Shown here: piece after piece, positions 1-20,559 of the stretch
Layout of the letters: each line of letters opens with the position of its first letter
Numbering within the stretch: position 1 is the first letter of the stretch
From: a virus
DNA: 39,275 nt
Direction: 5' to 3' (one strand)
Virus record (IMG/VR): IMGVR_UViG_3300008108_000179
Span: 1 to 39,275 of that record
Made by a program: the position numbers and the translations under genes
The notes under the pieces: model-generated
What the model was told of the DNA's origin: nothing
The model's input: the letters and a program-made list of their open reading frames with translations, nothing else
The model's database searches: none

Positions 1-3000
1 CCAATCTTCTATTTCTTCTTTAAATCTTCTTGCAGATGTATTTCTACCAACTCTCCAAGTAGATAGTGATATTTCCATACCTCTAATCGTACCTCCACCA
101 GGACTACCAACATTATTTAATATAATTGCAGGTCTAACTCCACCATCAACATAAGTTGTTATTATACCAGAATTACCTCCAGGATTCCAATTTATAGCTC
201 CACTACCCAATTCAATATTATTGCCATTCATAGCAATTTTACCAGTACTAGCTGCTATATCAATAGCAGTTCCACCAGTTGTGCCACTTAATCCTAAAAT
301 TGAATTTGTACCATCACCAACTAAAGTAATCCTGCCTTGCCCTGATAAAATAGGTAAAGCAGAATTTCTTTCTAATTTAATATATCTCGTTTGTGATGTT
401 GCGATTTGAATACCATCATTTGTAAGTTCCGTAACATCAATATTTTTTGAAGCTCCTATTGCTGGTGTGTTTATATAAAAATATACGTTAAACGTATCAC
501 CACCAAAACCACCTCCAGTTAGGTATTGATAACCTTCTACTTCTATAAACCATTTTAGTTCATATTGAGTTGATGCTTCTTCTGGTGCGGTAAAACTAAA
601 ATTACCACTATATCCATTAATTGTGGATGAATATTCACCAACACCACCATTCCAATAAGTACTAGCTATATAACCCGTTGCAACTAAAGAACTATCAGAA
701 ACTTTATATATATGATATCCCCAATATGCGTTTACATATCCTGTTCTGTTATTTGAATAAATAAAATCATAAAAAGATGGATATGTCACAACAGAATCAA
801 AATATGTACCACCCGTAACTGTAAATGTACCAGCAGAAATTTCATATACCTCATTCAAAGTTACACCTGAGGTAAAGTTATCAGAATCAGAAAAAGATAC
901 TGAACTTATATTTAATGTACCTCCTGCTAAATTTGTTAGCGTACCTGCGTTTATTTTTAATTGAGTAACTCCTGCTGTTTTTAACTCAATACCCGGTAAG
1001 TTTGGATTTAAAAATATTCGATTTCCATTATCTTTTAAATTTTGGTTTTCATCAACTTCCCAGTTTCCAATTTCTCCAGCAGTTGCAAATACTTTACCAG
1101 ACATTGTTACATCGGTAACAGAAAGACCTGTGTGTCTTAGTGCAAAGTTAGGTCCAACTAAACTTCCTGTACCATTTGCATCAAGCAATAAAGCCACACC
1201 AGCACTACCCGTTCCAACTTGAACCGAATCTCTAAATATACCACTCGCTCCATTAATATTTCCCCTAAAATATGCATTACCAGATGAATCTACTGCAAAT
1301 CCTTGCGTTCTAATTGAACTTCCAGCTAAATTAATAAAAGTACCAACCGATGAAAAATATGGATGCGAACCTGCTACATAATTTGTAGATTGAATAGCAG
1401 TACCAGCAAACATATTTGCAACAATAACACCAGGTCCAATAAATGTTGTAGCATTACCACTATTAATAGAATTAATAGCTGCCATAGCACCCAATGAACC
1501 ACTTAATGCATTTACAGCTACTGCCGTTTGTACAGCTGCCACACCTATTGATGTTGCCGAACCAGAAGCAACCGAACCACTAACTGCATTTTGCGTTGCT
1601 GCATTACCGCCCGTTACTGTTATATCTCCTGCAATTTCCAATCCACTACCATTCCATTTTAGGTATCTATCTTGTGCGCCATTTACAATAGAGAATCTAC
1701 CAGTAGTACCACCAGACCCAATTGGTTGTTCATAAATTCCTAAGAATATACCCGGTCTAGCATAACCAATAACAGCCTGCCCAGTAGTATAATTTCCACC
1801 GGGATTTAAAGTTGTACCAGCAGTACCAGATGTACCAACCGTTGCATTTTGTCCAATAGCAATATATGGGTCAGTTCTACCACCAGCAATTACAATGTTT
1901 GCAAATGCACCAGTACCATTTACAGTACCAACGTTAATCGTATTCTTAACATAAGATTCTTCAAATATTGCAATCTTAGCTGCTACGAAAAATTCTTCTT
2001 GTCCTAAAAATTCCCAAAAATCAGGTTGTGTATCAGGCTGCTTTGCTCCAATTAAATTAAATCCGCCAGGAGGAGATGCACCAACATAAAATGTGGATGT
2101 TGTTGGATTTACATATGTGTTTGGACCCGAACCACTAACTGCTGCGTAGTAATTTGTAGTACCAGGAACTGCGTTATAAATTACAGCATCTCTACGATTA
2201 TTTGTTGTTTCAACTTGTCCAATATAATCAGTTTGATTACTCCACTCACCTCTCATTACAATACCAGGCCCTACAGCGCCTTCAAATTGAATTGATAAAG
2301 ATTGTGTTTTATATAAAAGTTGTCTTCCTTCACAATTAATTTCATAAACAATTTCTGCTGTTGGATTACTATCAGGATCTGTCCATCCAACAATACCAGG
2401 GAATGTTGCCGGATTGCCCGGAACTAATGAGTTTGGTGCTAATGCACCACCTAAAGTTATATGAGATGATTTTGAATAAATTTCAACTTGACATTGATTT
2501 TTATATCCCCAATTTCCATAAGCATCTCTTTGTGTAGTCCCCCACCCAGTAGGTCTATGTGTTAATTCTTGATTACCTCTATAAACTCTTATTATATTAG
2601 ATGTACTTCCAAATTCTAACTCACCAGAAACTCTATATACAATTGATGAGTTTTCATTTTGCATTTTTACATCATACGGAGCGGGTGGTGTAAACTGAAC
2701 AGATATTGATTGTGTTACAAAATCAATTTGTCTTGCTTTTTCATAATCAACTTTATAAACAATTTGTGCAGAAGTATTAGTTGCCCAGCCATCCCAATCA
2801 TATAAATCACCAATTGTTGCTGGGTTGGATGGTGGAAATTTAGTTTCACCAATTGGAGAACCAACTGCACCAGACATTGTTACGAAGCCCGGTTTTGAAA
2901 ATATTGATGCTGATGAGAACCCTAAATTACCGATAAAATTACCTAAATAATCATAAACTTCTTGAGAAGGTACATAAGATGATGTATTATTTAATTGATT

Positions 3001-6000
3001 AATTCCTTTAAATGTGGTTATTTTTATACCAGTTCCAGTTAAAGTTTTATCCCATAAATCTCCAGTAATTGAGCAGTTTTCATTTGTAGCAGATAATTTG
3101 TAAGCATCTGCTCCAGCTTTTACACCAACTATTGTAAGTGATGATTGTGCTCGTATTGGTGCGGTTGATGCATTATTACCATCCCTAATTCTTACAGTCC
3201 AAGTTGAATTTTCACCCGGCCCAGTAATATCACCACCACCAACTTCTAATGTTGCGTATTTAGAATTTGGAGCATCTTCTCCCACAATACCAGAATAATC
3301 AATATCATCTTTAAAAAACTGAAACCAAACTGCTCCAGTTGTATTTGTTGCTGTTGCTGTTAATGTAATTGGGTCCAATGGAGCCGTTACAACACCATCT
3401 CTATCAAAGTTTACAGTTTCATAAGTTGCTTTTAAATCTACATTTCTAGCGTTTGGTGGCGCAACGTTTTTAGTAAATGTTTGAGTTCTTTGATATATTG
3501 ATGATGTGTATAAATGCCCAGCACCCAATGCAAATGGATATACTTGAATAGTATAAACTGCACTTCCGGATACATAAGGATAATCAAATCTATTGAAATT
3601 TAATGTAGCTGTACTCAATGAAGATGATGATAATGAACCTGTTCTTATATTCCAAATTCCACTATTTCGTGTTTCAACAGAATTTATTCTCCAAGTTCCT
3701 GGTGCTACTGAGCGAGTTGTGAAAGTAAGAAAATCATCACCTTCTTTTACTGTTATTGTAGTATTGGCGTTTGTATAAGTTGAAATATAACCAACTTCAT
3801 CCGCAGGTATCGCAACTGATGTAGGTGATATTACAATTTGAATTGGTGGCGCACCTTCTAAAGTTTTATTATATTGTTGTACAAAACTACCCGTATAAAC
3901 AGAAGATGTATAATATGGTTGTATCTCTAAATTATATGTAACACTTCCACTCAACTGAGTCATATCTGATGCTGGTCCAATTCTTAATGAACCAGTATTA
4001 TCTGCATTAAATCCAATTGGTGAAAGTGAATTTAAAACTGTACCGGGAGTTATAGAACTTCCTGTAATTGATGATTGCGCTACCCAGAAAGTACCCGCTA
4101 CTCTACTTGATGTAAACGAAAGGTATCTTGAACCTTGCTTAATTTTTATATCAGTAATTGATGCAGAATAACTTGTTACTATACCTCTTGAGTTAGCATT
4201 AAGGTTTACTACCGCAGGACTAACTTCATAAATAATTGTTTCATCACCAGGTTTACCTTCTGGTACAATACTAAATACTTTTGTTACGTTTACTGACTCA
4301 GATGAGTATGGTTCTAAATAAGTTGCCGTTACCGTAAGTGTTTTACTTTGTGATAATGGAGAACGTACATATGAACCCAAAGGTAATGATGGTATTATAA
4401 AATTATTATCATCAGTTGCTACAACACTAATATCCGCATTTACACTTGATGTATAATAATACATCCAATATTCAGGAACAAAATCCTTATTAATTGACAT
4501 TGATGGGAATACAAATACTGATGCTGATATTGGATATAAATTTGTACCCCTTCTATAAAATGATGCAGTTGCTGATGCTGATGGTGGTGTAAATGTATTT
4601 GATAATCTTGGATTAATTGTAAATGTATCATTATCATAAACAAATACACCCGCATCCAATCCATCTAACAAATCAGTAAGTGTCAACGTTGTTAAAATAG
4701 AAGCTGAGTAATTTATTGAACTAGATGGTATTAAATAAATTGTTCTCTGACCATCTATTGAATCTCTATTAAATGTAGCGTTGTAATTTAATTCTTTAGA
4801 ACCACTCACACCCGGATAAACTCCTTTTAAAAAACCACTAGCCGATGCTTCACTTAACAAAAGATATTTAGAACCAGACAAAACGTGCATTTGAACCAAA
4901 GAACGACCAGATGGTAATCCTGCTCTTAAATTAATTTCATTAATACCATCTATACGAATTGCCTGTACCTCTAGCGAACCGGATGGGTCATTGTTTCGTA
5001 TTGTTGTTCCTCTATAAGGTCTAATTTCAAAATTCACACCACCTTTACCATCAACAACTCTTGTAATAACAATAGTATCGGTTACACCTTCACATTCTCC
5101 AGTAAATTCAATAAATTGAACAGGTATATCTTCTCTTGAACCTGTAAAGTTTTCTACCGTTAATCTTACCGTATCCAATTCTCTATCTAATAATAGTCCG
5201 GGAAATTGACCAGGCGTATATTGAGATTGTGATAATTCATTATTAAAAAAGTCAAAAGAACGTGATGTAAAGTTTACTGAACCTGTTAAATAACTTTTTA
5301 CAATATCAATGAATATTGTTGTTGGTGGAACTGGATTACCAAATCCAGAACCAGAATCAAATTGAAAATATAATGAAGATGGTATTAGTTGTAAATCTTT
5401 ATTAATTACATTTAAATTACCACCATCAAATGTTTTACTTTCTTCAACAAGAACAGGAATGTAATTATTGTTTATATCATAAAATTGAAATCTAAAATCA
5501 AATGTTTCTCTTGGTAAAGTTCTTGGTATTGGTTGTACAAAAGATATTTCGTTTGGTGAGAATGAACTTTCTTGAGATGCTCTTAAACTCACATCTGATA
5601 AATGCCATCCTAACCCTTTTACTTCAACATATAATTTTGCATTATCAATTTGTTCAGATTGAAAATTAGCTGTTATTTGCGATTTTTGCAATAAACTATT
5701 ATCAGATGTTACTGTTAAAATATTTTGAGATACTCCTGTTGTTACATTATTTGATGTTCTAGAGCCACTTATAAAAAATTTAATATAGTTTGCTTTAGAT
5801 AAATTTTGTGTAAGTCTTGTATTAAAAGTTAAAGTATATTCCGTATTTTGTGTTACATCAATTGATTTGGATGTAAAGAAATTATATGCATTTGCACCAT
5901 TACCATCTAATTTAACCGAATTAAATAAGAATGTTTGATTAAATGATGTTTGTAAATCATTTGATGATGTTATCCAATAATTTTTAAAATTAAATTGGTC

Positions 6001-7047
6001 AAATATACCATAAAATTCTTCGTTCTTTGTAGTGGACTCTAAATCTTTTAATAATTCATTTGATTCTAATTGAATTTCTTGAATGAATTGATAATCCGCT
6101 AAATCGGATTGAGATTTTCTATAAATTTTTACTCTAGCAACATCACCAACAAATGTTTCTAAATCGCTTATTGTAATTTTTGCAAAAGAACCTGTTAAAG
6201 CCGTTTTTAAATTATCAACACCTTCTACATAATTAAAAGATGCTGTATATCTTGTATTATCAAAATCCGATACAACTCCATTTGGAGCATAGGGTGAAGC
6301 TACTCTTAAATTTGTTTTATTTACAACATCATCAGCTAATAATGATACACCTAAATCAGTAAACTCCACATATGTTCCAGCTACAGATCCAGTCCAAGCA
6401 CTATTATCTGTTGTTGTTACTAAATAAGATGTTGGTAAAGTATAATCTGAAAGTTTTGTACCAATTGTAGGAGTTTGTGCAGTTCCTACCGCAAAACCTT
6501 TTTGAATAATAGGTGTTACTATGTTACTAAAAATTGGTTTTACAATTTCGTTAATTGAAATTTCCGGTCTTCTATAAAATCTTACTCTATCTTCGTTTGC
6601 TAATAATCTATTAATTGTAAATTCTCTTTCCCACTTTAGGTTATAAACATTTTTCCATTCTTCTGGTATTTGCTGTAATATTCCATTTTCATCAACATAT
6701 GTTTTTAACTCACCTAAAATTGTAATTTTAGCATTTCCAATTGGAGTATCTTCATAAACATAAACAGCAATTAATTTTGATACACCTTCATAATATTCAG
6801 GTATACCATTACCGGGTTCATAATAAACTGGATTTCCGTTTACATCTAAAATTTCAATTTTAATTTCAGTTGATTCTTTTAAGTGTTCAGAACCCTCTAT
6901 TAAGAATCCATTTTTACCTCCAGTGAAAATATCTTTAAACTCGGTAACTCTAAAATACTTAGAATTTACATCCGTATCAGTAATGTATGTCTGAAATAAA
7001 GTTAAATTTTGTGTTAAAACTTCTGGGTATTTTTTTATTATCGCCAT
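1..7047 (-). CDS. Giant tail fibre / receptor-binding protein (3' end cut by window)
   Basis: An uninterrupted reading frame of 2,349 codons starts at ATG 7047-7045 and is still open at position 1. The N-terminal 200 or so residues are non-repetitive and probably attach to the baseplate. The middle is a chain of Ser/Thr/Gly-rich beta-sandwich-like modules. Two are related at about residues 940-1060 and 1060-1180, and another related pair lies near residues 1395-1450 and 1530-1590. Around residue 1,797 comes Y-L-K-W-N-G-S-G-L-E-I-x-G-D-I-T-V, a motif common in the distal part of phage host-specificity fibres. The last visible residues, T-S-A-R-R-F-K-E-E-I-E-D-W, resemble the start of a peptidase S74 intramolecular chaperone, which trimerises fibres and then cuts itself off. 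That domain lies outside the window, so this part is inference. The product is probably exposed on the virion and sets host range. It is the only gene of its transcription unit visible here. Confidence 0.85.
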   Translation of the reverse strand, partial: MAIIKKYPEVLTQNLTLFQTYITDTDVNSKYFRVTEFKDIFTGGKNGFLIEGSEHLKESTEIKIEILDVNGNPVYYEPGNGIPEYYEGVSKLIAVYVYEDTPIGNAKITILGELKTYVDENGILQQIPEEWKNVYNLKWEREFTINRLLANEDRVRFYRRPEISINEIVKPIFSNIVTPIIQKGFAVGTAQTPTIGTKLSDYTLPTSYLVTTTDNSAWTGSVAGTYVEFTDLGVSLLADDVVNKTNLRVASPYAPNGVVSDFDNTRYTASFNYVEGVDNLKTALTGSFAKITISDLETFVGDVARVKIYRKSQSDLADYQFIQEIQLESNELLKDLESTTKNEEFYGIFDQFNFKNYWITSSNDLQTSFNQTFLFNSVKLDGNGANAYNFFTSKSIDVTQNTEYTLTFNTRLTQNLSKANYIKFFISGSRTSNNVTTGVSQNILTVTSDNSLLQKSQITANFQSEQIDNAKLYVEVKGLGWHLSDVSLRASQESSFSPNEISFVQPIPRTLPRETFDFRFQFYDINNNYIPVLVEESKTFDGGNLNVINKDLQLIPSSLYFQFDSGSGFGNPVPPTTIFIDIVKSYLTGSVNFTSRSFDFFNNELSQSQYTPGQFPGLLLDRELDTVRLTVENFTGSREDIPVQFIEFTGECEGVTDTIVITRVVDGKGGVNFEIRPYRGTTIRNNDPSGSLEVQAIRIDGINEINLRAGLPSGRSLVQMHVLSGSKYLLLSEASASGFLKGVYPGVSGSKELNYNATFNRDSIDGQRTIYLIPSSSINYSASILTTLTLTDLLDGLDAGVFVYDNDTFTINPRLSNTFTPPSASATASFYRRGTNLYPISASVFVFPSMSINKDFVPEYWMYYYTSSVNADISVVATDDNNFIIPSLPLGSYVRSPLSQSKTLTVTATYLEPYSSESVNVTKVFSIVPEGKPGDETIIYEVSPAVVNLNANSRGIVTSYSASITDIKIKQGSRYLSFTSSRVAGTFWVAQSSITGSSITPGTVLNSLSPIGFNADNTGSLRIGPASDMTQLSGSVTYNLEIQPYYTSSVYTGSFVQQYNKTLEGAPPIQIVISPTSVAIPADEVGYISTYTNANTTITVKEGDDFLTFTTRSVAPGTWRINSVETRNSGIWNIRTGSLSSSSLSTATLNFNRFDYPYVSGSAVYTIQVYPFALGAGHLYTSSIYQRTQTFTKNVAPPNARNVDLKATYETVNFDRDGVVTAPLDPITLTATATNTTGAVWFQFFKDDIDYSGIVGEDAPNSKYATLEVGGGDITGPGENSTWTVRIRDGNNASTAPIRAQSSLTIVGVKAGADAYKLSATNENCSITGDLWDKTLTGTGIKITTFKGINQLNNTSSYVPSQEVYDYLGNFIGNLGFSSASIFSKPGFVTMSGAVGSPIGETKFPPSNPATIGDLYDWDGWATNTSAQIVYKVDYEKARQIDFVTQSISVQFTPPAPYDVKMQNENSSIVYRVSGELEFGSTSNIIRVYRGNQELTHRPTGWGTTQRDAYGNWGYKNQCQVEIYSKSSHITLGGALAPNSLVPGNPATFPGIVGWTDPDSNPTAEIVYEINCEGRQLLYKTQSLSIQFEGAVGPGIVMRGEWSNQTDYIGQVETTNNRRDAVIYNAVPGTTNYYAAVSGSGPNTYVNPTTSTFYVGASPPGGFNLIGAKQPDTQPDFWEFLGQEEFFVAAKIAIFEESYVKNTINVGTVNGTGAFANIVIAGGRTDPYIAIGQNATVGTSGTAGTTLNPGGNYTTGQAVIGYARPGIFLGIYEQPIGSGGTTGRFSIVNGAQDRYLKWNGSGLEIAGDITVTGGNAATQNAVSGSVASGSATSIGVAAVQTAVAVNALSGSLGAMAAINSINSGNATTFIGPGVIVANMFAGTAIQSTNYVAGSHPYFSSVGTFINLAGSSIRTQGFAVDSSGNAYFRGNINGASGIFRDSVQVGTGSAGVALLLDANGTGSLVGPNFALRHTGLSVTDVTMSGKVFATAGEIGNWEVDENQNLKDNGNRIFLNPNLPGIELKTAGVTQLKINAGTLTNLAGGTLNISSVSFSDSDNFTSGVTLNEVYEISAGTFTVTGGTYFDSVVTYPSFYDFIYSNNRTGYVNAYWGYHIYKVSDSSLVATGYIASTYWNGGVGEYSSTINGYSGNFSFTAPEEASTQYELKWFIEVEGYQYLTGGGFGGDTFNVYFYINTPAIGASKNIDVTELTNDGIQIATSQTRYIKLERNSALPILSGQGRITLVGDGTNSILGLSGTTGGTAIDIAASTGKIAMNGNNIELGSGAINWNPGGNSGIITTYVDGGVRPAIILNNVGSPGGGTIRGMEISLSTWRVGRNTSARRFKEEIEDW

Positions 7048-7136: not shown

Positions 7137-7313
7137 ATGAAAAAATACGCAATGATACAAATTGATGCCGAAATACATCAATTATTAAAGGATTTTTGTA
7201 AAGAGAAAGGATATAAAATAAATGGGCTTGTGGAAACCCTTATAAAAGAAAAAGTGGAATCCGTTAAAAAGATTCCACCAAAAAATATATTACCAGTTAA
7301 TTCTAAAACTTAA
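7137..7313 (+). CDS. Small ribbon-helix-helix (RHH) DNA-binding protein
   Basis: ATG 7137 opens a 58-residue frame ending at TAA 7311-7313, the only gene I support on the plus strand. The N-terminus has the RHH pattern: a short beta strand (Y-A-M-I-Q-I-D), a first helix (A-E-I-H-Q-L-L-K-D-F-C-K-E-K-G), a turn, and a second helix (I-N-G-L-V-E-T-L-I-K-E-K). A lysine- and proline-rich tail follows. RHH proteins are dimeric transcription regulators whose strand inserts into the major groove. It lies divergent from the tail fibre gene and its 3' end overlaps the convergent nuclease gene by 11 nt. The upstream inverted and direct repeats are candidate self-binding sites. The fold call comes from pattern only. 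An alternative start at Met6 is possible but would remove part of the strand. Confidence 0.62.
   Translation: MKKYAMIQIDAEIHQLLKDFCKEKGYKINGLVETLIKEKVESVKKIPPKNILPVNSKT
7254..7278 (-). terminator. Intrinsic terminator of the primase-nuclease operon
   Basis: On the minus strand GTGGAATC, a 9-nt loop and GATTCCAC are followed by TTTTTCTTTT, a perfect 8-bp stem with a U-rich tail. It lies 25 nt past the TAG of the nuclease gene. It sits inside the 3' coding part of the convergent RHH gene, so the same bases serve both. Confidence 0.7.
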
Positions 7314-10300
7314 TCTTAGAGAATCCGTGCTCTTTCTTAATCTCAATCAATCCATCCACAATATCTCTCATTTGTTCCAAGTGAGAAATTACCCAAATAA
7401 AATCAAATTGAGTTTTTAGATATTGCATCATCATAAAGAGAGAAGATAAGTTATCTGCATCTAAAGTTCCGAATCCTTCATCTATTACTAAGAAGTTAGG
7501 TCTAGGAAGTCCGCATATGTTAATTAGAGCCACTCTAATCGCTAGTCCCGATATGAACTTCTCCATACCACTACACATCTCTAGAGTCCACTCCTGGTCT
7601 TCATAAACGATTTTAGCATTAATGTTCTTTCCATCCGTATCCATTAAAAGAGAGAAATCCACAACCTGTGCTAAGATATTATTCACTTCGTTCTCAATAA
7701 CCGGCATTGCTTTAGAAATTAATTCATAAGGAACACCATCCTTCTTTACCGCATCTAAGTAGTAAGTGTAAAGGTTACTTTTAGATTCCAATTCCTTAAC
7801 TTCTTCCATTTGTTTCTTTGTAGAATCAATGAAAGCCTGAATAGAACCTATCTTCATTGTAGATGCCGTAATCTTTTTGTTTAATTCCGTAATCTTTTTA
7901 TCAACTTCTTTTTTATCAAACTCTAATAATTTGATTTGGTTGTTTATTTCTATATTCTTTTGGATAGTTGCTTCACTTTCATAGTACTTTGCTATATCAG
8001 CTTCAGTAGTATCTAATTGATTTTGGAGTAACTGCTTTTGAGTTTCCAATGTTCCCAATTCCGCTTCAGCCTTTTCTCTAACCACAACCCCTTTATGATA
8101 TTTGTTACGAAGTTCTACCAACTTAGTCCAAACATCATCTACTTCTGAATATGGTTCAGTACTCTTAATTAACATTTGGTGTGATAAATTAAGAACTTCT
8201 AATTGAGATTCTTGTGTTTTAACAATTTCTTTAGTTGCAATAGCATCCTTAACAAATACATTGTTCATACAAAACTGACAATTTGGGTCATACTCATGTT
8301 GTTCCAAATGTTTAAGTTTCTCTAAATTAGATTCGTATTGAGATTCCAATTTATCTATTTGCGTTTGTATATCTGCTATCTTACCCTTAGCCAAATCCCA
8401 TTCTTTTTTAGCATCATCAATATCCATTCCGTTTACTACTGCATGTTGGTTGATTGATTGGGATACCTCTCCTAATAACTCACCATATTCGTTTATTTTG
8501 CTTCTTTTACTTTCCTTATCAGTTTCATTGGTTTGGATTTTGGATTCAATAGTGCTCTTAGAAACACCCAATGCTTTGATATCTAACTTAGTATCAATTG
8601 GTGTTAGGGATTCCTTTAAATCAGATATTCCGTTTTGAATTCCTTCTTTATCTTTGTTTAAAGTTTTAGATTGGGATTCCAAGTCGGATAACTCTTTTTT
8701 GGTTTCTTTTAAGTCGGTCTCTTTTTGGGCTAATTCAGTCGTAAAATCCGTCCTTTTGAAATTTCTGATTAGTACGGCCACTTCCTTAATCTCATTTGAT
8801 GCAGCCTCATACAGCTTATCAAATATGTCCAATCCCATAAATTGTGCAAGTAAGTCCTTCCTTTCCGATTGTGATTTATCAATGAATAGAGCATTGTTAC
8901 CTTGCAAACTTAGTGCAGTCATAACGAAATCTTCATACCTTCCCACATATCCTTCAATGACTTGGTTTGTATCTCTACGTTCCGTTCCGTTTAAGGATTC
9001 CGTTACCCCATCTACCACTCTCCAAAATTGTACATCTACCTTTACGTTCTTTCCCTTATTAATAGTACGTGCTTCCCTACGGATGAAGTATTGTACACCT
9101 TCTACTTCAAAATCTAATTGGCAATGGAAGTCAGCCTTTCTATTGTTCATAATGTGAGATGCCTTATAGGCTCTACTACACTTATCGAACAGGCAGAATG
9201 ATATTGCGTCAAACAAAGATGATTTACCTGCTGCGTTTGGTGCGAATAATCCCATCAGTCCGTTTACTTTGCTGAAGTTAATTACATTATCTTCACCATA
9301 TGAGAACATATTAGAGAATTCAAATCTTACCGGCTTCCATTTTACGTTTCTTGTCAGTTCATCTAATTCTATCCTTCCGTTTATCTCTTTGTTAAGGGAT
9401 TGTATGCCTTGGATTTCTTCATCAGTCACAAATGGCATCATCCTTCCTATGTAATCCGTTATTAAGGAGTTTTGGTAGGTTATATCCGTAATATCTTCTA
9501 ACTCTAATTGATTATCTCTATCACCGGTCTTTTTCTTTGCCAATGAATCAGTACGAATTGTTGTAAAGTCCTCAACACCATACTTCACTTTGATTTCGGT
9601 GATTGCTTTCTTAGTATCAACCGCATCGGTATTAGAGAATCTTACCCTAAGCCTTGGATACAAAGGTAAATCAGTAACGTCAGGTACAACTCCTCCGATA
9701 ATATCCATAGTGTAGTACCCATAATCATTTTTAATATCAACTTCTTCATATGTTAATGTTTCTAAATCCCAAACTAAGAAACCATGCTTATCTAAAGTTT
9801 CTCCAAAGTTTTGTTGCACCAACGAACCTGCGTAAACACACTTACAACCTTTAGGGGAGATTAGTTCTTGTCTTTTGTGGATATCACCTAACAATGCTAA
9901 ATGGAAACCATCAAACATATCGGTTGTGAAATGACGAGAAGATACAACGTATCCTACATCAGTTTGAGAATGGTCAACAGGTCCGTGGAAAAGTGCAACT
10001 TTTAATCGTGCGGATGAAAGACTGAAATCATCAGCCATTATCCAATTATCTTTATTATCAAAAATACTAAATACTGAAAATGCTACTCCATCTAACCAAA
10101 ATGTTTGTGTATCTTTTAGATAGTGGAAGTTTTCTAAATTCAAAGCCTCTACGATTGGAGTTAATACATCCAAACGGTCAGAGTTATTCATATTACAATC
10201 GTGATTACCAGCGATTAGGATTGTAGGACAGTGTTTTGTACATTCGGTAAACAACCAACTAATCTCTTTCACCAATTCAGGTGACATTTCTAATTTAGCA

Positions 10301-10455
10301 TGTGCAATATCGCCTGCCAAATAAATGATTGAATCTTCCGTACCTCTACTACGGATTTCTTCAAACATCTTTTCAAATACACCTCTAAATTCTTTGTGCC
10401 TCTTTACGTTACGGATGTGTATATCCGCTATATGATAAATTCTTTTTAAATTCAT
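7303..10455 (-). CDS. Single-chain Mre11-Rad50 (SbcD-SbcC; T4 gp47-gp46) recombination nuclease
   Basis: This 1,050-residue protein joins both halves of the Mre11-Rad50 complex, which processes DNA ends for recombination-dependent replication. Residues 1 to about 370 are the metallophosphoesterase: D11-x-H13, G-D49, G-N84-H85-D, H157-G, G-D191-x-H193, then S-L-V-Q-Q-N-F-G-E typical of Mre11. Residues from about 375 are Rad50-like: Walker A A-P-N-A-A-G-K-S-S (405-413), coiled coil, zinc-hook-like C726-Q-F-C729, returning coiled coil, signature C-S-G-M-E (961-965) and Walker B F-L-V-I-D-E-G-F-G-T-L-D (988-999). In T4 and most bacteria these are two genes, and here no stop or restart separates them. 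Its start overlaps the primase stop (ATGA), so translation is coupled. All catalytic motifs are present, so it is probably active. Confidence 0.95.
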   Translation of the reverse strand: MNLKRIYHIADIHIRNVKRHKEFRGVFEKMFEEIRSRGTEDSIIYLAGDIAHAKLEMSPELVKEISWLFTECTKHCPTILIAGNHDCNMNNSDRLDVLTPIVEALNLENFHYLKDTQTFWLDGVAFSVFSIFDNKDNWIMADDFSLSSARLKVALFHGPVDHSQTDVGYVVSSRHFTTDMFDGFHLALLGDIHKRQELISPKGCKCVYAGSLVQQNFGETLDKHGFLVWDLETLTYEEVDIKNDYGYYTMDIIGGVVPDVTDLPLYPRLRVRFSNTDAVDTKKAITEIKVKYGVEDFTTIRTDSLAKKKTGDRDNQLELEDITDITYQNSLITDYIGRMMPFVTDEEIQGIQSLNKEINGRIELDELTRNVKWKPVRFEFSNMFSYGEDNVINFSKVNGLMGLFAPNAAGKSSLFDAISFCLFDKCSRAYKASHIMNNRKADFHCQLDFEVEGVQYFIRREARTINKGKNVKVDVQFWRVVDGVTESLNGTERRDTNQVIEGYVGRYEDFVMTALSLQGNNALFIDKSQSERKDLLAQFMGLDIFDKLYEAASNEIKEVAVLIRNFKRTDFTTELAQKETDLKETKKELSDLESQSKTLNKDKEGIQNGISDLKESLTPIDTKLDIKALGVSKSTIESKIQTNETDKESKRSKINEYGELLGEVSQSINQHAVVNGMDIDDAKKEWDLAKGKIADIQTQIDKLESQYESNLEKLKHLEQHEYDPNCQFCMNNVFVKDAIATKEIVKTQESQLEVLNLSHQMLIKSTEPYSEVDDVWTKLVELRNKYHKGVVVREKAEAELGTLETQKQLLQNQLDTTEADIAKYYESEATIQKNIEINNQIKLLEFDKKEVDKKITELNKKITASTMKIGSIQAFIDSTKKQMEEVKELESKSNLYTYYLDAVKKDGVPYELISKAMPVIENEVNNILAQVVDFSLLMDTDGKNINAKIVYEDQEWTLEMCSGMEKFISGLAIRVALINICGLPRPNFLVIDEGFGTLDADNLSSLFMMMQYLKTQFDFIWVISHLEQMRDIVDGLIEIKKEHGFSKIKF

Positions 10456-11387
10456 ATATTATTTAGTTTTGCCATCATCAAGTCTTCCCACGAAGTTTCT
10501 TTGGCATCTTTTAAAATTTCATTTACTTTTTGAAAACCCATCTCACCAGCATCTTTATCGGTTGGAATGATATTACGAACTCTTATACCATTCTTCATAA
10601 ACCAATCAGTATGTTTAGTGGAATCTTCAACGGCATCAGAATCTAACATAATCGTTACATCCTTAACACCTTTCTCTAATATTTTATTCTTTAATTTACT
10701 TAGCAAGAACTTGCCTAATAACGGAATTACATTTCTCTTTACCGAGAATGAATCAAATACACCTTCAACGAGGGTAATTGGTTCGTTCCAATTAATCATA
10801 TTCTCAAATACAATTACATCTCTGCTAATTGGTGGGTTCTTATACTTCATTTTATCATCTTCATAGAATGAACGAGCTACAAAGTAATTAAGGTCACCAT
10901 TATCATCGTAAGAAGGTATAATAACTCTGCCACCATAAAGTCCATCTTCACAATATCCGATGTTATACTTTACAATATCAGCTTTAGTGATACCCCTTTT
11001 ATTTAAATAGTGTATAGCTTGATTATATGAAGGATTGATACCCTTTGGTTTGAAGTATAGTTGTTTAAATTCTTTTGGTAGTTGTAATTTGGCTACATAT
11101 TCCTCTTTGGAATCGTATTCAGGTTCGTCACCATATACATCCTTTACAACTGCTATATCCCTAAGGTCTACATTTAATTTACGAAGAAGTGAACTTATAC
11201 TTCTACCCTTAGAATCACATACCCAACAATGCCATCTTTGAGTATCTAAGTTTACTTGCAACTTCTTTTTGTGGTGGTTACAAAACGGACAATGGTGTGC
11301 CTGCTCATTTCCCTTTAAGGATGAACCCACTCCTAATGCCGAGTCTAATATGGTGATTATTTTTAATTTGTTTCTACCCGATAGCAT
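10452..11387 (-). CDS. DNA primase, DnaG/T4 gp61-like
   Basis: This 311-residue protein makes RNA primers for lagging-strand synthesis. The N-terminus has a four-cysteine zinc ribbon (C33-P-F-C36 and C54-W-V-C57) that recognises template. The C-terminal half has a TOPRIM core with the catalytic glutamate in T-L-V-E208-G-V-F-D and the acidic metal-binding motif I-M-L-D249-S-D251. The length is close to T4 gp61 and much shorter than bacterial DnaG, because the helicase-binding C-terminal domain is absent. It is the first gene of a two-gene unit with the Mre11-Rad50 fusion and overlaps it by 4 nt. No replicative helicase is visible nearby. Confidence 0.92.
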   Translation of the reverse strand: MLSGRNKLKIITILDSALGVGSSLKGNEQAHHCPFCNHHKKKLQVNLDTQRWHCWVCDSKGRSISSLLRKLNVDLRDIAVVKDVYGDEPEYDSKEEYVAKLQLPKEFKQLYFKPKGINPSYNQAIHYLNKRGITKADIVKYNIGYCEDGLYGGRVIIPSYDDNGDLNYFVARSFYEDDKMKYKNPPISRDVIVFENMINWNEPITLVEGVFDSFSVKRNVIPLLGKFLLSKLKNKILEKGVKDVTIMLDSDAVEDSTKHTDWFMKNGIRVRNIIPTDKDAGEMGFQKVNEILKDAKETSWEDLMMAKLNNI

Positions 11388-11668: not shown

Positions 11669-12076
11669 TTAATATATATCCTTTCGGAAGAATTTTCCTA
11701 AGATATTTTCGTTTAAGGAATTAGGGTCAGATAAGACTTCCATCTTAAACTGCCACCAAACTTCCCAATAAGTCAATGATTTTTTAGAAAAGCAAAATTG
11801 TATAATTTCTCTTTCAAAGTCCTCAGCTCTACCTTCTTTTATTTCGTTTTTAATCCATTCGTTTGATGAATAGTACTTCTCCCAATCGGATGCTTTACGA
11901 ACTACTCTTTTACGAACCTTTCCCTTTAGAGGTTTTAGGCGGCGGACTTGATTTAATGATTTTTTACCAATATAGGTTTTACCAGTAGGGATGTGTGTAA
12001 TCTTATAGACAAAACCTATCGCACCCTCTGGAGTGTTTTCTTCTGTAACATTATTTCCCTTAAATTTCCAAGACAT
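11669..12076 (-). CDS. GIY-YIG family endonuclease
   Basis: This 135-residue protein carries the GIY-YIG core near its N-terminus: G21-F-V-Y24-K-I-T followed by T-G-K-T-Y35-I-G37-K-K. Downstream are basic residues (R45-R46) and an acidic F-E-R-E-I-I-Q segment (about 88-93) that could supply the metal-binding glutamate. The spacing Y-Y-S-S-N-E-W-I-K near residues 68-76 matches small stand-alone GIY-YIG proteins of T4-like marine phages. Family members cut DNA as homing endonucleases, host-DNA-degrading enzymes or repair nucleases, and I cannot tell which applies. It lies between two small unknown genes, 3 nt from the upstream one. There is no intron or split gene nearby to suggest homing at this locus. 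Confidence 0.82.
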   Translation of the reverse strand: MSWKFKGNNVTEENTPEGAIGFVYKITHIPTGKTYIGKKSLNQVRRLKPLKGKVRKRVVRKASDWEKYYSSNEWIKNEIKEGRAEDFEREIIQFCFSKKSLTYWEVWWQFKMEVLSDPNSLNENILGKFFRKDIY

Positions 12077-15294: not shown

Positions 15295-18200
15295 TTAATC
15301 AACTTCAAGTATTGGTTCACCACTACCTCTACCAGTCTTAGCCACTCTAAGAATGTTAGGATTTGTTGTAAATGTTTCTACTGGAGATAATCCGTCCGGC
15401 GTTGTTGCTGCTGTTTGCTGCGAACCTTTCCAAAATGAACGTATCATACCTTCTGCCAAATTATTTTTAAATTTATAGTGAGATGGTAAGTAACCATTTA
15501 CTGATTGTACCTCAACTACATCATTTCCTATTTGAACACTTCCACTAAAAGGTAAAGTTGACACTCTATATTTGTATTTTGTAACAGGTTGTTTTTTATA
15601 TTTTACTTGGTCTCCCGGTTGGTATCCAGAAACAGGATATCCAGATATTTGCTCATTAACAAATTCTGTATATTGCTCTTTTACTAAGAATATAGATTTT
15701 CTACTTCCCGTAAGTTGACAATTTCCAAACACTCCTTCCCAATTTCTTACAATACCATTACCTTTCTTTGCATACAAACCAAATCCCGCATTTGCTAAAG
15801 AATCTTTTTCCATTCCAATTTGTGTAGAAGTAAATACATCCACACTTCCCAACAATGTTTCACCCAATGGGAATGTAATATTAATTGAGCCTGTATTTGG
15901 ATATGTAGGATATGCAGTTTCAATTAAATTATCAAAACTATAATTTATTTTAGAATCATAGGTTGGATTTGTACTTTCTAAGATTACTATATTATTTGCA
16001 TCAACCGATGTATCATAATTTGGTAAATCAACTAAAAATGATGTTACTTCTTCATTATTAATAAAAGCATTCTTTACTGAATATTCTAATTCAATTTGAT
16101 TATCATCTGCTGTATTTATTTTTGTTTCGTAGTCATTTCTTAAAGATTCCGGTTTACTCCATTTAGTTTTACTTCTTTCCAAATAGTGAGGTTCAATTAA
16201 TAAACCTTTAGATATTTTTGCTCTAGCTGGTGCTAAATCAGCAAGAACTTCAAATAAAGATTTATCAATGTATTTTATTAATCTAATATATTCGTAAATG
16301 TCTCTGTTTTCAAGTCTTTCAAAATAGTAACTTCTTAAATCATCTAAAGTTTTATATCTATCTCTATAATCATCCGATGGGTCACCTATATAGTTATCAA
16401 TATTAAAATCACCAAACGCTTTTAATATATCCATATTCAACTCCTTAATTGGAGAGAAAAATAATCCTAAACGAGATGAATCAATAGGGGCTTGGTCAAA
16501 AGATTTTTTAGTTGCTCTTGTTTTATAAGAAAGGTCAGTTACTAATGATGCGGATTCAAAACGAATTTTATTTGAATATGTAAATCCTAAAGATGGAACT
16601 GTTGCTGTTACAGTTCTATCGTATGGTGTATATTGATATGGATATGTTGATGCAGAATACATCATACTTGCTGATGCGAACTTAACATCATAGCTTGTAT
16701 TTATAGATACGTTTTTAATACCAATATCAGATGTTCTATCTTTTGGATATTCAAAATCTAAACGGAATACTAAATCAGCGGTCGATGCTGTATATGAGTT
16801 TCCATTTATTGCGTCTGGAAATAATGTATGGTTTTCAAATTTACTTCTTAACAATGGTGTTTTCCATAAACGGAATTCATCCACATTACCTTCATAGTTA
16901 TTTCCACCAATTTGTAAGAATGAACCAGTTTCCCATTCGGTATCATCTGTTTGTAAAGACATACTAACAAATGTTGTAATTCTTGTACCATTTGTAGTTG
17001 CATATAATACTTCAAACCACGAAGAGGAATCTGGATTATTATGTCTATTAATTAAAACATTTGAATAGTATTCAGTTGAAACAGGAAAATGTAAACTTCC
17101 AGTTTTATAATCAGGTCCATATGCATAAGGTTCATCATTTATATATTCAATATAAACAGTTGAAACAAATGGAGAACCACTTACAAATGGTTCATCAAAG
17201 TATGTACTTGTTGATTTATCACCACCAAAGTTTAATTCTAATTTAGCAAATGAACCGGTAGTTTTTACTAAATCCAAACTCCACTCACTACCTGATATTA
17301 GAGTGTATATTGGATTTGGTGTATATGTTGGTTTAATTCTAAATTCAACTGCATTTGGGTAATCTCCAAAGCCAGTAATAGTTTTCCAAGGTATTTTTAC
17401 ATTTGCATCATCTTTTAAATAAATTGCTGCTGTTCTATCATCAAATGTAAATTGAGATGATGCACCTTTAGTTGGGTCTTGCGGTCCACCAAATTCCATA
17501 ATCGTTAACATGGATTGTGGTACACCATAACAAGCCATTACAGCTTTCATTGCTCTTGCTGTACCTTTATGTTTTAACAAATATGGTAAGTTATTTAAAA
17601 TTCTTCTCCACACTTCGTTATTGGCATCCTCTAAACTTCTTCCATATTTATAACCACCTTCTTTTGATGTTCCTAAAACATATTCCCACAAAAATTGAGA
17701 ATCAAATGCTCTTTTACCTTTCCAACCCAACGAATCCAACATTTGATATACCATAGCATTTGATATACCAACATCTTGCTTATGTTCTAAATTTTTATTT
17801 GCTTTTAATGCGTTTATATAACACCACAATATATCAAAGTGTTGACCAACCATATCTAAGAATAACAAAAATTCTGCATTTTGATAGTCTTCGATAATAT
17901 GTTCAGGCATATTGTTTTTCATAGAGTGTGGATTATCCACATCATAAATTGCTCCAGAGTTTGAAGCAAAATCTAGCCAACTTTGAGCTTGAGAAGTTTG
18001 CCATCCTCTAACAACTCTAAAAACAACTCCGTTTGGTGCTATATAATTTTCTTTTGGAAATGCTAAATAATGCTCTGTTTTGTATAGCCATTTTTCAAAT
18101 CCATCGAAACTTTTTATTAAATTATTAATTTTATTAGCTAAGGATTCCAGTTCTTCAGTTTGTGATAATCCTTGCTGTAAATAAACTTCCCAATTTAATG

Positions 18201-20559
18201 AATATAATGCATCTTCAGTTTGTATTTCTTCATTACCATCTATTTCGGGAGTACCAGCGCCACCAACATCTTCAGTCAATAATGCAGCTTGCAAATATTC
18301 ATAAGGTGGTGTAAAAGTTTCTGCATAAAGAGTTTTATATTTTATTGTTAAATTTTCTAAAACTTTTAATTTATAAAAGAAATTATTAACTCTTTCTTCA
18401 GCCGAACCAAAGTGTACATAGTTATCCCACACATAATCAGAACCACTTACATATTGAATGTTTAATTTTTCTGTATCAATTGTGTTTTGTTCTGCGAATT
18501 TATTAATTAATTCTGCGGATGTATTAGAACCGCTTGCTATTAATTCATCAAAAACTTTAAATCCAATCCCATTATCAGGCTCTAATGAAAAATTAGGTCC
18601 TTTTAATGGTGGGCAATAAGAAGTATCAACGCCACTTATTGTGATTGTTTCTACAATAGGATTTGCTTGTAATTTTGAAATCCAAACTTGTTGGTTTGGT
18701 TGTACCGAGGTTGGTAATGGTTCGTATAGTTTTAAAATTAAAGAACCTTTATGTCCTGTCCAAGTAGTAATTACTTTATTATCACCTCCACCTAAATGTA
18801 ATAAGTGAGTTAAATATTTAGATGTATCTATGTTAAATACACTATCATTAAATTGATTAATAAATCCTTCAATAATTCTATTGATAGCTAAATCTCTAGG
18901 TATTGTTAAATCACCTTTATCAAACTTAATAGTAATTATTTCTTCTTTTCCAGTTACTACTTCGTTTCCTTCTTCATTATAAGGTACTAATTTTAAAACA
19001 ACAGATATTTTATCTACATCATCAAAATTTGATGAACCATCTAGTAATAAAAGTTGTTCAAAATTTAAATCAATTTTTCCACTAGGTGCAGCTTTTATAA
19101 ATTTATCAGTTCCTACTTTATAAATTCTTACATAATCAGTATTTACCGAATCGTATGATATTGAAAAATCAACATTTGTACCTACATAATCAGGTCCAAA
19201 TAATTCAGATGGATATGTTATATTTCTTATATCAGGAACACCAACATAAAATTCATCAACAACATTAATTGTTAATTCTAAAAACTCACCATCTCCTCTT
19301 GTATTAGATGGTAAAAGTAAAACCTTATATGCTCCTAATCTAGTAAAATTGTTAGATGGTATAGAAATTATAAATTCATTTGTTTGTGGTACATTGAACT
19401 CTATTTCTTTTTCATTTATATAAACTTTTAAATTAGAAACAGTTGTAAGTTTTCTTAATCCAATTGGTATATCTGAATTAGAATTTATATTATACTCTCT
19501 GCTTGTTTCCGAATTAATAAATTCTAATTTTGCAAAATCATCTAATTGTACAACAGGCACTTCTTCTACAACTAAATTTATAATATCTCCAGCTGCAGGT
19601 GAATACGTTAAACTTAAACTTTCTGTTGGTAATGCAGTTTTATCTTCATTAAAATTATTAATTGTAGAAATGTATTGTAAAGAAGAAATCCTATATGTTC
19701 TATTTGTTGCCTTTAAAATATATGTTGTATTAGTATCTAATGATAATTCATTTGTACCAACTGATAAATTTAATGGCGTTCTTCTAATTGATATCCCAGA
19801 TGGTGCTATTTCAGCAGAACCATCTATACCTTTTAAATTTATTTTAACATTTACAAAATTATCCACCGGCGGAGTATCAATTGGTGGTGTATCTTTTGGT
19901 ATTTCTTTTGTTACTTTTGTAAATTCTAATATTTTTAATAACGAATCTATATTATATGGATATTCTTCAATAGTATTTTCATCACTATAATATAAAATCT
20001 TAACTGTCCATAATGGTGTATTAGAGTATGCAATATTTGAGTTTGATATATCAATAATTCCTCTATTTGCATATCCAAATAAACTATCAAACGGATTTAT
20101 ATTTAAATTTAAATTAAAATTTGGATTTTCAACAACTGTAATTACAAATTTTTCTTTTGATGTATAACCTAATTTTTCTAATGTAACTTCAATAGGGTTT
20201 ACTAAAATTTCACTTATTTTTTTAGAAAATGTATGTGGCGTTGTTTGAAATGTATTTTCTTTATTAAAAAATACAGAAGCTCCTTCAATATTAGATGAAA
20301 CTCTAAATCTATAAAAAATATCAGATGTTGCCGTACCACTTTGCTCTGTAATTGGAAGGTATCCTAAATTAGTTGATTCTCCTTTTGGTGATGTGATAAC
20401 AGTATCGGTTGTATATGGTACAGCTACTCCGGTAAAATTATAGTTATCTCCACCCACCACACTTGGGCCGGCAAATCCAGATCCGCCACCAAAAGAAACA
20501 CCGTTTCTAAATGGTACTGCATCATCTAAGAGATAACTATTGAATTCCTTTTCTATCAT
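15295..20559 (-). CDS. Very large baseplate/tail protein with gpI-like and LamG-like regions (1,754 aa)
   Basis: This is the last gene of the baseplate operon. Residues 1-870 are mainly beta, with proline-rich spacers (T-P-P-I-D-T-P-P-V-D near 225) and several Ig-like stretches. Residues about 870-1030 are helical and contain E-V-W-R-R-I-L-N-N-L-P-Y-L-L-K-H-K-G-T-A and the following R-A-M-K-A-V-M-A-C-Y-G-V-P. This resembles the phage P2 gpI / tail protein I family (wedge-to-fibre adaptor), where a chain of short helices ends in a K/R-G-T motif. Residues about 1050-1280 look like a concanavalin-A/LamG jelly roll ending in G-N-V-D-E-F-R-L-W-K-T-P-L. The remainder (1280-1754) is unassigned. I infer an adaptor linking wedge and fibres with a sugar-binding module inserted. 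The gpI and LamG assignments are by eye. Confidence 0.78.
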   Translation of the reverse strand: MIEKEFNSYLLDDAVPFRNGVSFGGGSGFAGPSVVGGDNYNFTGVAVPYTTDTVITSPKGESTNLGYLPITEQSGTATSDIFYRFRVSSNIEGASVFFNKENTFQTTPHTFSKKISEILVNPIEVTLEKLGYTSKEKFVITVVENPNFNLNLNINPFDSLFGYANRGIIDISNSNIAYSNTPLWTVKILYYSDENTIEEYPYNIDSLLKILEFTKVTKEIPKDTPPIDTPPVDNFVNVKINLKGIDGSAEIAPSGISIRRTPLNLSVGTNELSLDTNTTYILKATNRTYRISSLQYISTINNFNEDKTALPTESLSLTYSPAAGDIINLVVEEVPVVQLDDFAKLEFINSETSREYNINSNSDIPIGLRKLTTVSNLKVYINEKEIEFNVPQTNEFIISIPSNNFTRLGAYKVLLLPSNTRGDGEFLELTINVVDEFYVGVPDIRNITYPSELFGPDYVGTNVDFSISYDSVNTDYVRIYKVGTDKFIKAAPSGKIDLNFEQLLLLDGSSNFDDVDKISVVLKLVPYNEEGNEVVTGKEEIITIKFDKGDLTIPRDLAINRIIEGFINQFNDSVFNIDTSKYLTHLLHLGGGDNKVITTWTGHKGSLILKLYEPLPTSVQPNQQVWISKLQANPIVETITISGVDTSYCPPLKGPNFSLEPDNGIGFKVFDELIASGSNTSAELINKFAEQNTIDTEKLNIQYVSGSDYVWDNYVHFGSAEERVNNFFYKLKVLENLTIKYKTLYAETFTPPYEYLQAALLTEDVGGAGTPEIDGNEEIQTEDALYSLNWEVYLQQGLSQTEELESLANKINNLIKSFDGFEKWLYKTEHYLAFPKENYIAPNGVVFRVVRGWQTSQAQSWLDFASNSGAIYDVDNPHSMKNNMPEHIIEDYQNAEFLLFLDMVGQHFDILWCYINALKANKNLEHKQDVGISNAMVYQMLDSLGWKGKRAFDSQFLWEYVLGTSKEGGYKYGRSLEDANNEVWRRILNNLPYLLKHKGTARAMKAVMACYGVPQSMLTIMEFGGPQDPTKGASSQFTFDDRTAAIYLKDDANVKIPWKTITGFGDYPNAVEFRIKPTYTPNPIYTLISGSEWSLDLVKTTGSFAKLELNFGGDKSTSTYFDEPFVSGSPFVSTVYIEYINDEPYAYGPDYKTGSLHFPVSTEYYSNVLINRHNNPDSSSWFEVLYATTNGTRITTFVSMSLQTDDTEWETGSFLQIGGNNYEGNVDEFRLWKTPLLRSKFENHTLFPDAINGNSYTASTADLVFRLDFEYPKDRTSDIGIKNVSINTSYDVKFASASMMYSASTYPYQYTPYDRTVTATVPSLGFTYSNKIRFESASLVTDLSYKTRATKKSFDQAPIDSSRLGLFFSPIKELNMDILKAFGDFNIDNYIGDPSDDYRDRYKTLDDLRSYYFERLENRDIYEYIRLIKYIDKSLFEVLADLAPARAKISKGLLIEPHYLERSKTKWSKPESLRNDYETKINTADDNQIELEYSVKNAFINNEEVTSFLVDLPNYDTSVDANNIVILESTNPTYDSKINYSFDNLIETAYPTYPNTGSINITFPLGETLLGSVDVFTSTQIGMEKDSLANAGFGLYAKKGNGIVRNWEGVFGNCQLTGSRKSIFLVKEQYTEFVNEQISGYPVSGYQPGDQVKYKKQPVTKYKYRVSTLPFSGSVQIGNDVVEVQSVNGYLPSHYKFKNNLAEGMIRSFWKGSQQTAATTPDGLSPVETFTTNPNILRVAKTGRGSGEPILEVD

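Follow-up and report, generated by a model that had tools for sequence, protein, structure and literature searches.

A probable Mimivirus R555-type single-chain Mre11/Rad50 nuclease encoded by a large tailed phage infecting aquatic bacteria

Introduction

Proteins in which Mre11 and Rad50 are fused were described in 2011 by Yoshida, Claverie and Ogata, who started from the Mimivirus protein R555 and listed twelve further fusions, found in bacteria, plasmids, eukaryotes and Bacillus phage 0305phi8-36 (PMC3175470). The Mre11-then-Rad50 order with a linker of 9–12 residues was noted to fit the T. maritima complex, where the gap is about 28 Å, and R555 was reported to depart from characterised enzymes at two sites, the third Asp of GDxxD being replaced by His, and His206 of P. 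furiosus Mre11 by Asp (PMC3175470). Using a wider sample, the same authors concluded that fusion, or splitting, had occurred repeatedly, and proposed that the R555 relatives in aquatic metagenomes, whose scaffolds also carry phage primase genes, are mostly viral, probably phages (PMC3175470). Our literature search for later accounts of SbcCD fusions in phages found none beyond this paper. Among the two-gene systems, T4 gp46/gp47 resect DNA ends for recombination-dependent replication (PMC3016280).

Results

The gene under study occupies positions 7303–10455 on the minus strand of the window, by which we mean the whole stretch of 39,275 nucleotides that was analysed. It is a single open frame of 1050 codons, with the ATG at 10455 and the stop ending at 7303, and encodes a protein of 1050 residues. 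The initial annotation had delimited this frame properly but left the strand unstated; the plus strand of the same interval is riddled with stops. Pfam assigns residues 4–171 to Metallophos, the calcineurin-like phosphoesterases (E 8e-9), and residues 380–600 to the Rad50/SMC-like AAA_23 (E 2e-16), with a weak match to SbcC_Walker_B at residues 957–1009 which falls under the cut-off. Against PHROGs the protein matches the SbcC-like phrog_77 (E 2e-56), and in PDB sequence comparisons the N-terminal part matches Mre11 and the C-terminal part Rad50 and SbcC. The domain layout of R555, with an N-terminal Metallophos/Mre11 region and a C-terminal Rad50/SbcC ATPase in one frame, is present, and the assignment as a single-chain Mre11/Rad50 (SbcD/SbcC) gene draws further on 136 uninterrupted homologous loci (see below).

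The features expected of Mre11-Rad50/SbcCD proteins, namely five phosphoesterase motifs, Walker A, signature, Walker B, D-loop, H-loop and an apical CxxC, are all found, and every motif that the initial annotation had listed for this frame (the phosphoesterase set, Walker A, hook, signature and Walker B) could be read directly. All coordinates given for them refer to the minus strand. The Mre11 phosphodiesterase domain (residues 1–240; 9736–10455), delimited from the Metallophos match and a fold match to T. maritima Mre11, contains motif I, DIH (11–13; 10417–10425), whose D11 and H13 are invariant in the alignments, motif II, GDIAH (48–52; 10300–10314), motif III, GNHD (83–86; 10198–10209), which is conserved in relatives, the motif IV histidine H157 (9985–9987), invariant in both alignments, and motif V, GDIH (190–193; 9877–9888). 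Both departures described for R555 are found here, as motif II has the form GDxxH in 135 of the 136 loci and motif V, with Asp where P. furiosus Mre11 has His206, reads GDIH in every one of them. The first of these, the histidine that ends motif II, is common in archaeal and eukaryotic Mre11, and the GDxH form of motif V also occurs in T5-like and Vibrio phages whose Mre11 is encoded by a gene of its own; since both traits are thus found outside the R555 type, they favour a link to R555 but are no proof of it.

Beyond the nuclease, a predicted Mre11 capping domain (about residues 241–316; 9508–9735) is suggested by a predicted strand-helix-strand arrangement and by Mre11 anatomy, residues 300–320 being of low confidence, and is followed by a predicted helix-loop-helix Rad50-binding domain (residues 325–359; 9379–9483), modelled as helices 325–339 and 345–359 with pLDDT of about 76–90. 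The interdomain linker (about residues 360–372; 9340–9378) is a predicted coil, partly with pLDDT below 50, and is ungapped among the IMG/VR rows of the alignment. Lobe I of the Rad50 ATPase (about residues 373–542; 8830–9339), delimited from AAA_23 and from sequence matches to Rad50 structures, carries the Walker A motif APNAAGKS (405–412; 9220–9243), in which A405, N407, A408, G410, K411 and S412 are invariant in 27 relatives. Two stretches of predicted helices, an ascending coiled coil (about residues 543–719; 8299–8829) and a descending one (about residues 734–903; 7747–8256), lead to lobe II (about residues 908–1050; 7306–7734), which has the signature CSGME (961–965), the Walker B motif FLVIDEG (988–994), a D-loop and the H-loop histidine H1025, and which aligns with Rad50 3aux and SbcC 6s6v. 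In comparison with characterised enzymes, three variants stand out: GDIH in motif V (His206-x-His208 in P. furiosus Mre11), Ala for the first Gly of Walker A, and SGME for SGGE in the signature. As relatives show them with little or no variation, they are traits of the clade and not errors.

The AlphaFold2 model of the single chain reaches medium confidence (mean pLDDT 71, pTM 0.40), and its domain packing, as well as any dimer, is unreliable. The modelled order is phosphodiesterase, capping domain, helix-loop-helix, linker of about 12 residues, lobe I with its first ATPase strand from residue 374, coil, hook, coil and lobe II; the predicted helix-loop-helix and short linker, which are those of the R555 type, agree with the published estimate of 9–12 residues (PMC3175470). 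Searches of the PDB with the model returned Rad50 and Mre11 chains, among them T. maritima Mre11 2q8u with a TM-score, normalised by target length, of 0.64. Among viral proteins, those closest in fold to the model are giant-virus DNA repair proteins of the R555 kind and of comparable length, from Tupanvirus (25% identity), Harvfovirus, Yasminevirus and Catovirus, with Megavirus and Klosneuvirus lower among the viral matches.

The zinc-hook motif CQFC (726–729; 8269–8280) lies between the predicted coils, and both of its cysteines, C726 and C729, are invariant in the alignments. The initial annotation had drawn attention to CQFC in place of CPxC; the difference is real, yet it is not peculiar to this protein, as a CxxC without proline is found in all 136 loci (65 CKFC, 33 CNFC, 10 CQFC, 8 CEFC, and others), the CPxC hook being that of XacN1 and of the seven split phage pairs examined. 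By its published definition the hook is a CxxC, and in P. furiosus the hook residue Pro445 adds stability in peptides (PMC5093744). Judging from that definition, CQFC should still bind zinc, possibly as a weaker hook for lack of the proline.

To define the set of relatives, a first IMG/VR scan returned at least 597 contig stretches encoding one, and a second scan with an alignment-based query added further loci, down to 47% identity. Among the loci fetched, 136 hold the fusion in one uninterrupted frame, corresponding to 109 distinct proteins as some contigs were fetched twice, and 21 are cut by a contig end. GTDB genomes gave 30 loci, mostly separate Mre11-like genes of Lachnospiraceae/Clostridia. 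One of these loci, on a deltaproteobacterial MAG contig which is possibly a phage (L161), has a primase and a fusion cut by the contig end. A Bacteroidales MAG contig (L162) carries at 5976–6828 a stand-alone Mre11-like frame of 284 residues, 34% identical to the N-terminus of the fusion; a primase homologue precedes it, and no adjoining Rad50 was detected. The plasmid collection, searched with the fusion as query, yielded short matches to Rad50 lobes only, with no fusion closely resembling this one, and the plasmid cases of 2011 were not recovered.

A DNA primase gene (10452–11387, minus strand; phrog_47, E 4e-50) lies directly upstream and overlaps the fusion start codon by 4 nt. A primase homologue is upstream in 131 of the 134 loci with enough sequence, 72 of which have the 4-nt frame overlap; in LR756508 a primase-like gene also overlaps the fusion copy, and in Microcystis phage Mel-JY01 a "DNA primase-like" gene is close upstream, with one small gene between. 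Baseplate wedge, tail and endolysin genes in the rest of the window indicate a tailed phage. The longest related record measures 274 kb, and among ten large records the fused protein is the only Rad50-like protein that covers phrog_77, other phosphoesterase matches being short stand-alone frames of about 200–300 residues. No recombinase partners were seen within the window, which spans only part of the genome.

Other genes of the window were noted in passing. A 58-residue frame at 7137–7313 on the plus strand converges on the fusion gene, overlapping its 3' end by 11 nt, and has a weak, sub-threshold match to RepB-RCR_reg. Near the primase, a SegE-type GIY-YIG endonuclease is encoded at 11669–12076 on the minus strand, likely a homing endonuclease, and among the structural genes a protein of 1754 residues (15295–20559, minus strand) matches nothing in PHROGs and nothing above threshold in Pfam, where its matches are all sub-threshold.

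In a maximum-likelihood tree of 18 proteins, either fused or concatenated from split genes, the protein of the window clusters with relatives from IMG/VR, with Mel-JY01 and with the huge-phage copy LR756508, and also with LR756501 and RHph_Y65, both of which have long branches and are unsure in placement. The fused protein of XacN1 falls within the split genes of jumbo phages, where Erwinia phage pEa_SNUABM_12 is its sister. The fused state needs at least two changes on this tree, which means that fusion, or splitting, took place more than once in phages. At 5570–6640 of LR756508.1, some 1 kb with a 305-residue TnsA-like endonuclease frame interrupts the fusion copy immediately downstream of motif V (GDIHKRQ). 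This looks like a homing-endonuclease insertion or an intron in the region of the nuclease active site; an Rfam search of the locus for an intron gave no match.

Discussion

The product of 7303–10455 is, with high confidence, a Mimivirus R555-type single-chain Mre11/Rad50 (SbcD/SbcC) nuclease of a large tailed phage infecting aquatic bacteria, the nuclease function being assigned by homology. The initial annotation had proposed the joining of the two activities in one chain, which is borne out, and had considered that its novelty would fall if many phages with the same fusion were already described. This is largely the case, as the 2011 paper includes a phage and aquatic viromes, and relatives are plentiful in IMG/VR. 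The single-chain type is one known since 2011, common in aquatic phages, and ordinary for this group.

The initial annotation had also feared an assembly error near residue 370, that is, adjacent sbcD and sbcC genes joined into one frame by assembly or sequencing. There is a precedent in Listeria phage LMTA-57, which has a single frame of 1009 residues (2917–5946) where phage A511 has the separate genes gp114 and gp115, one A being missing at the junction, just before the first stop. In the present clade, however, the junction (residues 360–373, about 9340–9378) is open in every complete relative examined and throughout the 136 loci, including relatives at about 39% identity (Mel-JY01) and below; its sequence is conserved and without intergenic signal, and two further IMG/VR contigs encode the same protein with 100% identity over the full length. 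As the same open junction is conserved across relatives, an assembly artefact was rejected, and we consider its probability negligible. LMTA-57 itself was set aside as a supporting case, being the A511 pair minus one base beside the first stop; by comparison of the two sequences, its single frame probably stems from a sequencing error or else from a recent mutation, and a library of predicted structures also carries this chain as one protein. A real frame might still give rise to separate Mre11 and Rad50 parts, by processing of the chain or by internal restart, so that the fusion would be only genomic. The predicted unstructured linker could serve as a protease site, but we found no other support for this, and the clade relatives have no stop, frameshift or interrupting open reading frame at the junction, with a linker of constant length among the IMG/VR rows of the alignment, which renders such separation highly improbable.

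It is slightly less improbable, although still very unlikely, that the fusion is real and does not resect ends, acting instead as a non-nuclease or regulatory chain, for example as a DNA tether or clamp. The Asp at the His206 position and the altered Walker A and signature, found in all relatives, would agree with such a role. Yet all metal-binding motifs are kept, and the acidic residue at the changed position can bind metal; the GDxH form is shared with the split Mre11 genes mentioned above; D11, H13, D49, N84, H85, H157, D191, H193 and Walker B are strongly conserved; and the ten large related records contain no second full Rad50-like protein. An active single-chain nuclease therefore stays the preferred reading, with the reservation that the departures in motif V, Walker A and the signature mean that rates or control could differ from those of characterised enzymes. 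We also entertain, as a rather doubtful proposition, that in a large phage clade the single chain, with its altered Walker A and signature and its proline-less hook, is the sole Mre11-Rad50 enzyme, and that the covalent link alters control of the ATP-driven open/closed cycle; if true, the covalently linked enzyme of this clade would be an end-resection enzyme with its own regulation.

By analogy with T4, the role of the active single-chain enzyme is likely the resection of phage DNA ends. Two fused chains would pair through both their nuclease and their ATPase domains, giving the usual M2R2 assembly, and each helix-loop-helix would dock where the coil of the same chain begins, at its base, a cis arrangement suggested by the published complex together with the short linker. 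ATP would then open and close the nuclease onto DNA ends, and the resected double-strand ends would serve the linear phage genome in its repair and in recombination-dependent replication, as with gp46/gp47. A natural single chain with a fixed 1:1 ratio could ease biochemical and structural work on Mre11-Rad50.

Compared with known systems, the protein shares with R555 the domain order, GDxxH, the Asp for His206, the helix-loop-helix, the short linker, an aquatic viral source and nearby primase genes, and differs from it in length (1050 residues against 1351) and in belonging to a tailed phage and not to Mimivirus; the likeness rests on the published description and on the fold match to the Tupanvirus protein at 25% identity. 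Also related is WWT39521.1 of the cultured cyanophage Mel-JY01, named "AAA domain containing protein", a full-length fusion with 39% identity over 100% of the query and a CKHC hook instead of CQFC. The T4 gp47/gp46, T5-like, SPO1-like and E. coli SbcD/SbcC systems have the same activities, domain content and nuclease-first gene order, but are encoded by two genes and lie on separate branches from the fusion clade, whereas ORF305 (1099 residues) of Xanthomonas phage XacN1, likewise a cultured phage, is a single chain with the same domain order that arose by a separate fusion event. The long contigs bear out the suggestion made in 2011 from short reads that aquatic R555-type fusions are largely phage-borne; the picture of the Mre11/Rad50 fusion family is unchanged by this member, which adds to it a placement in large tailed phages of aquatic samples.
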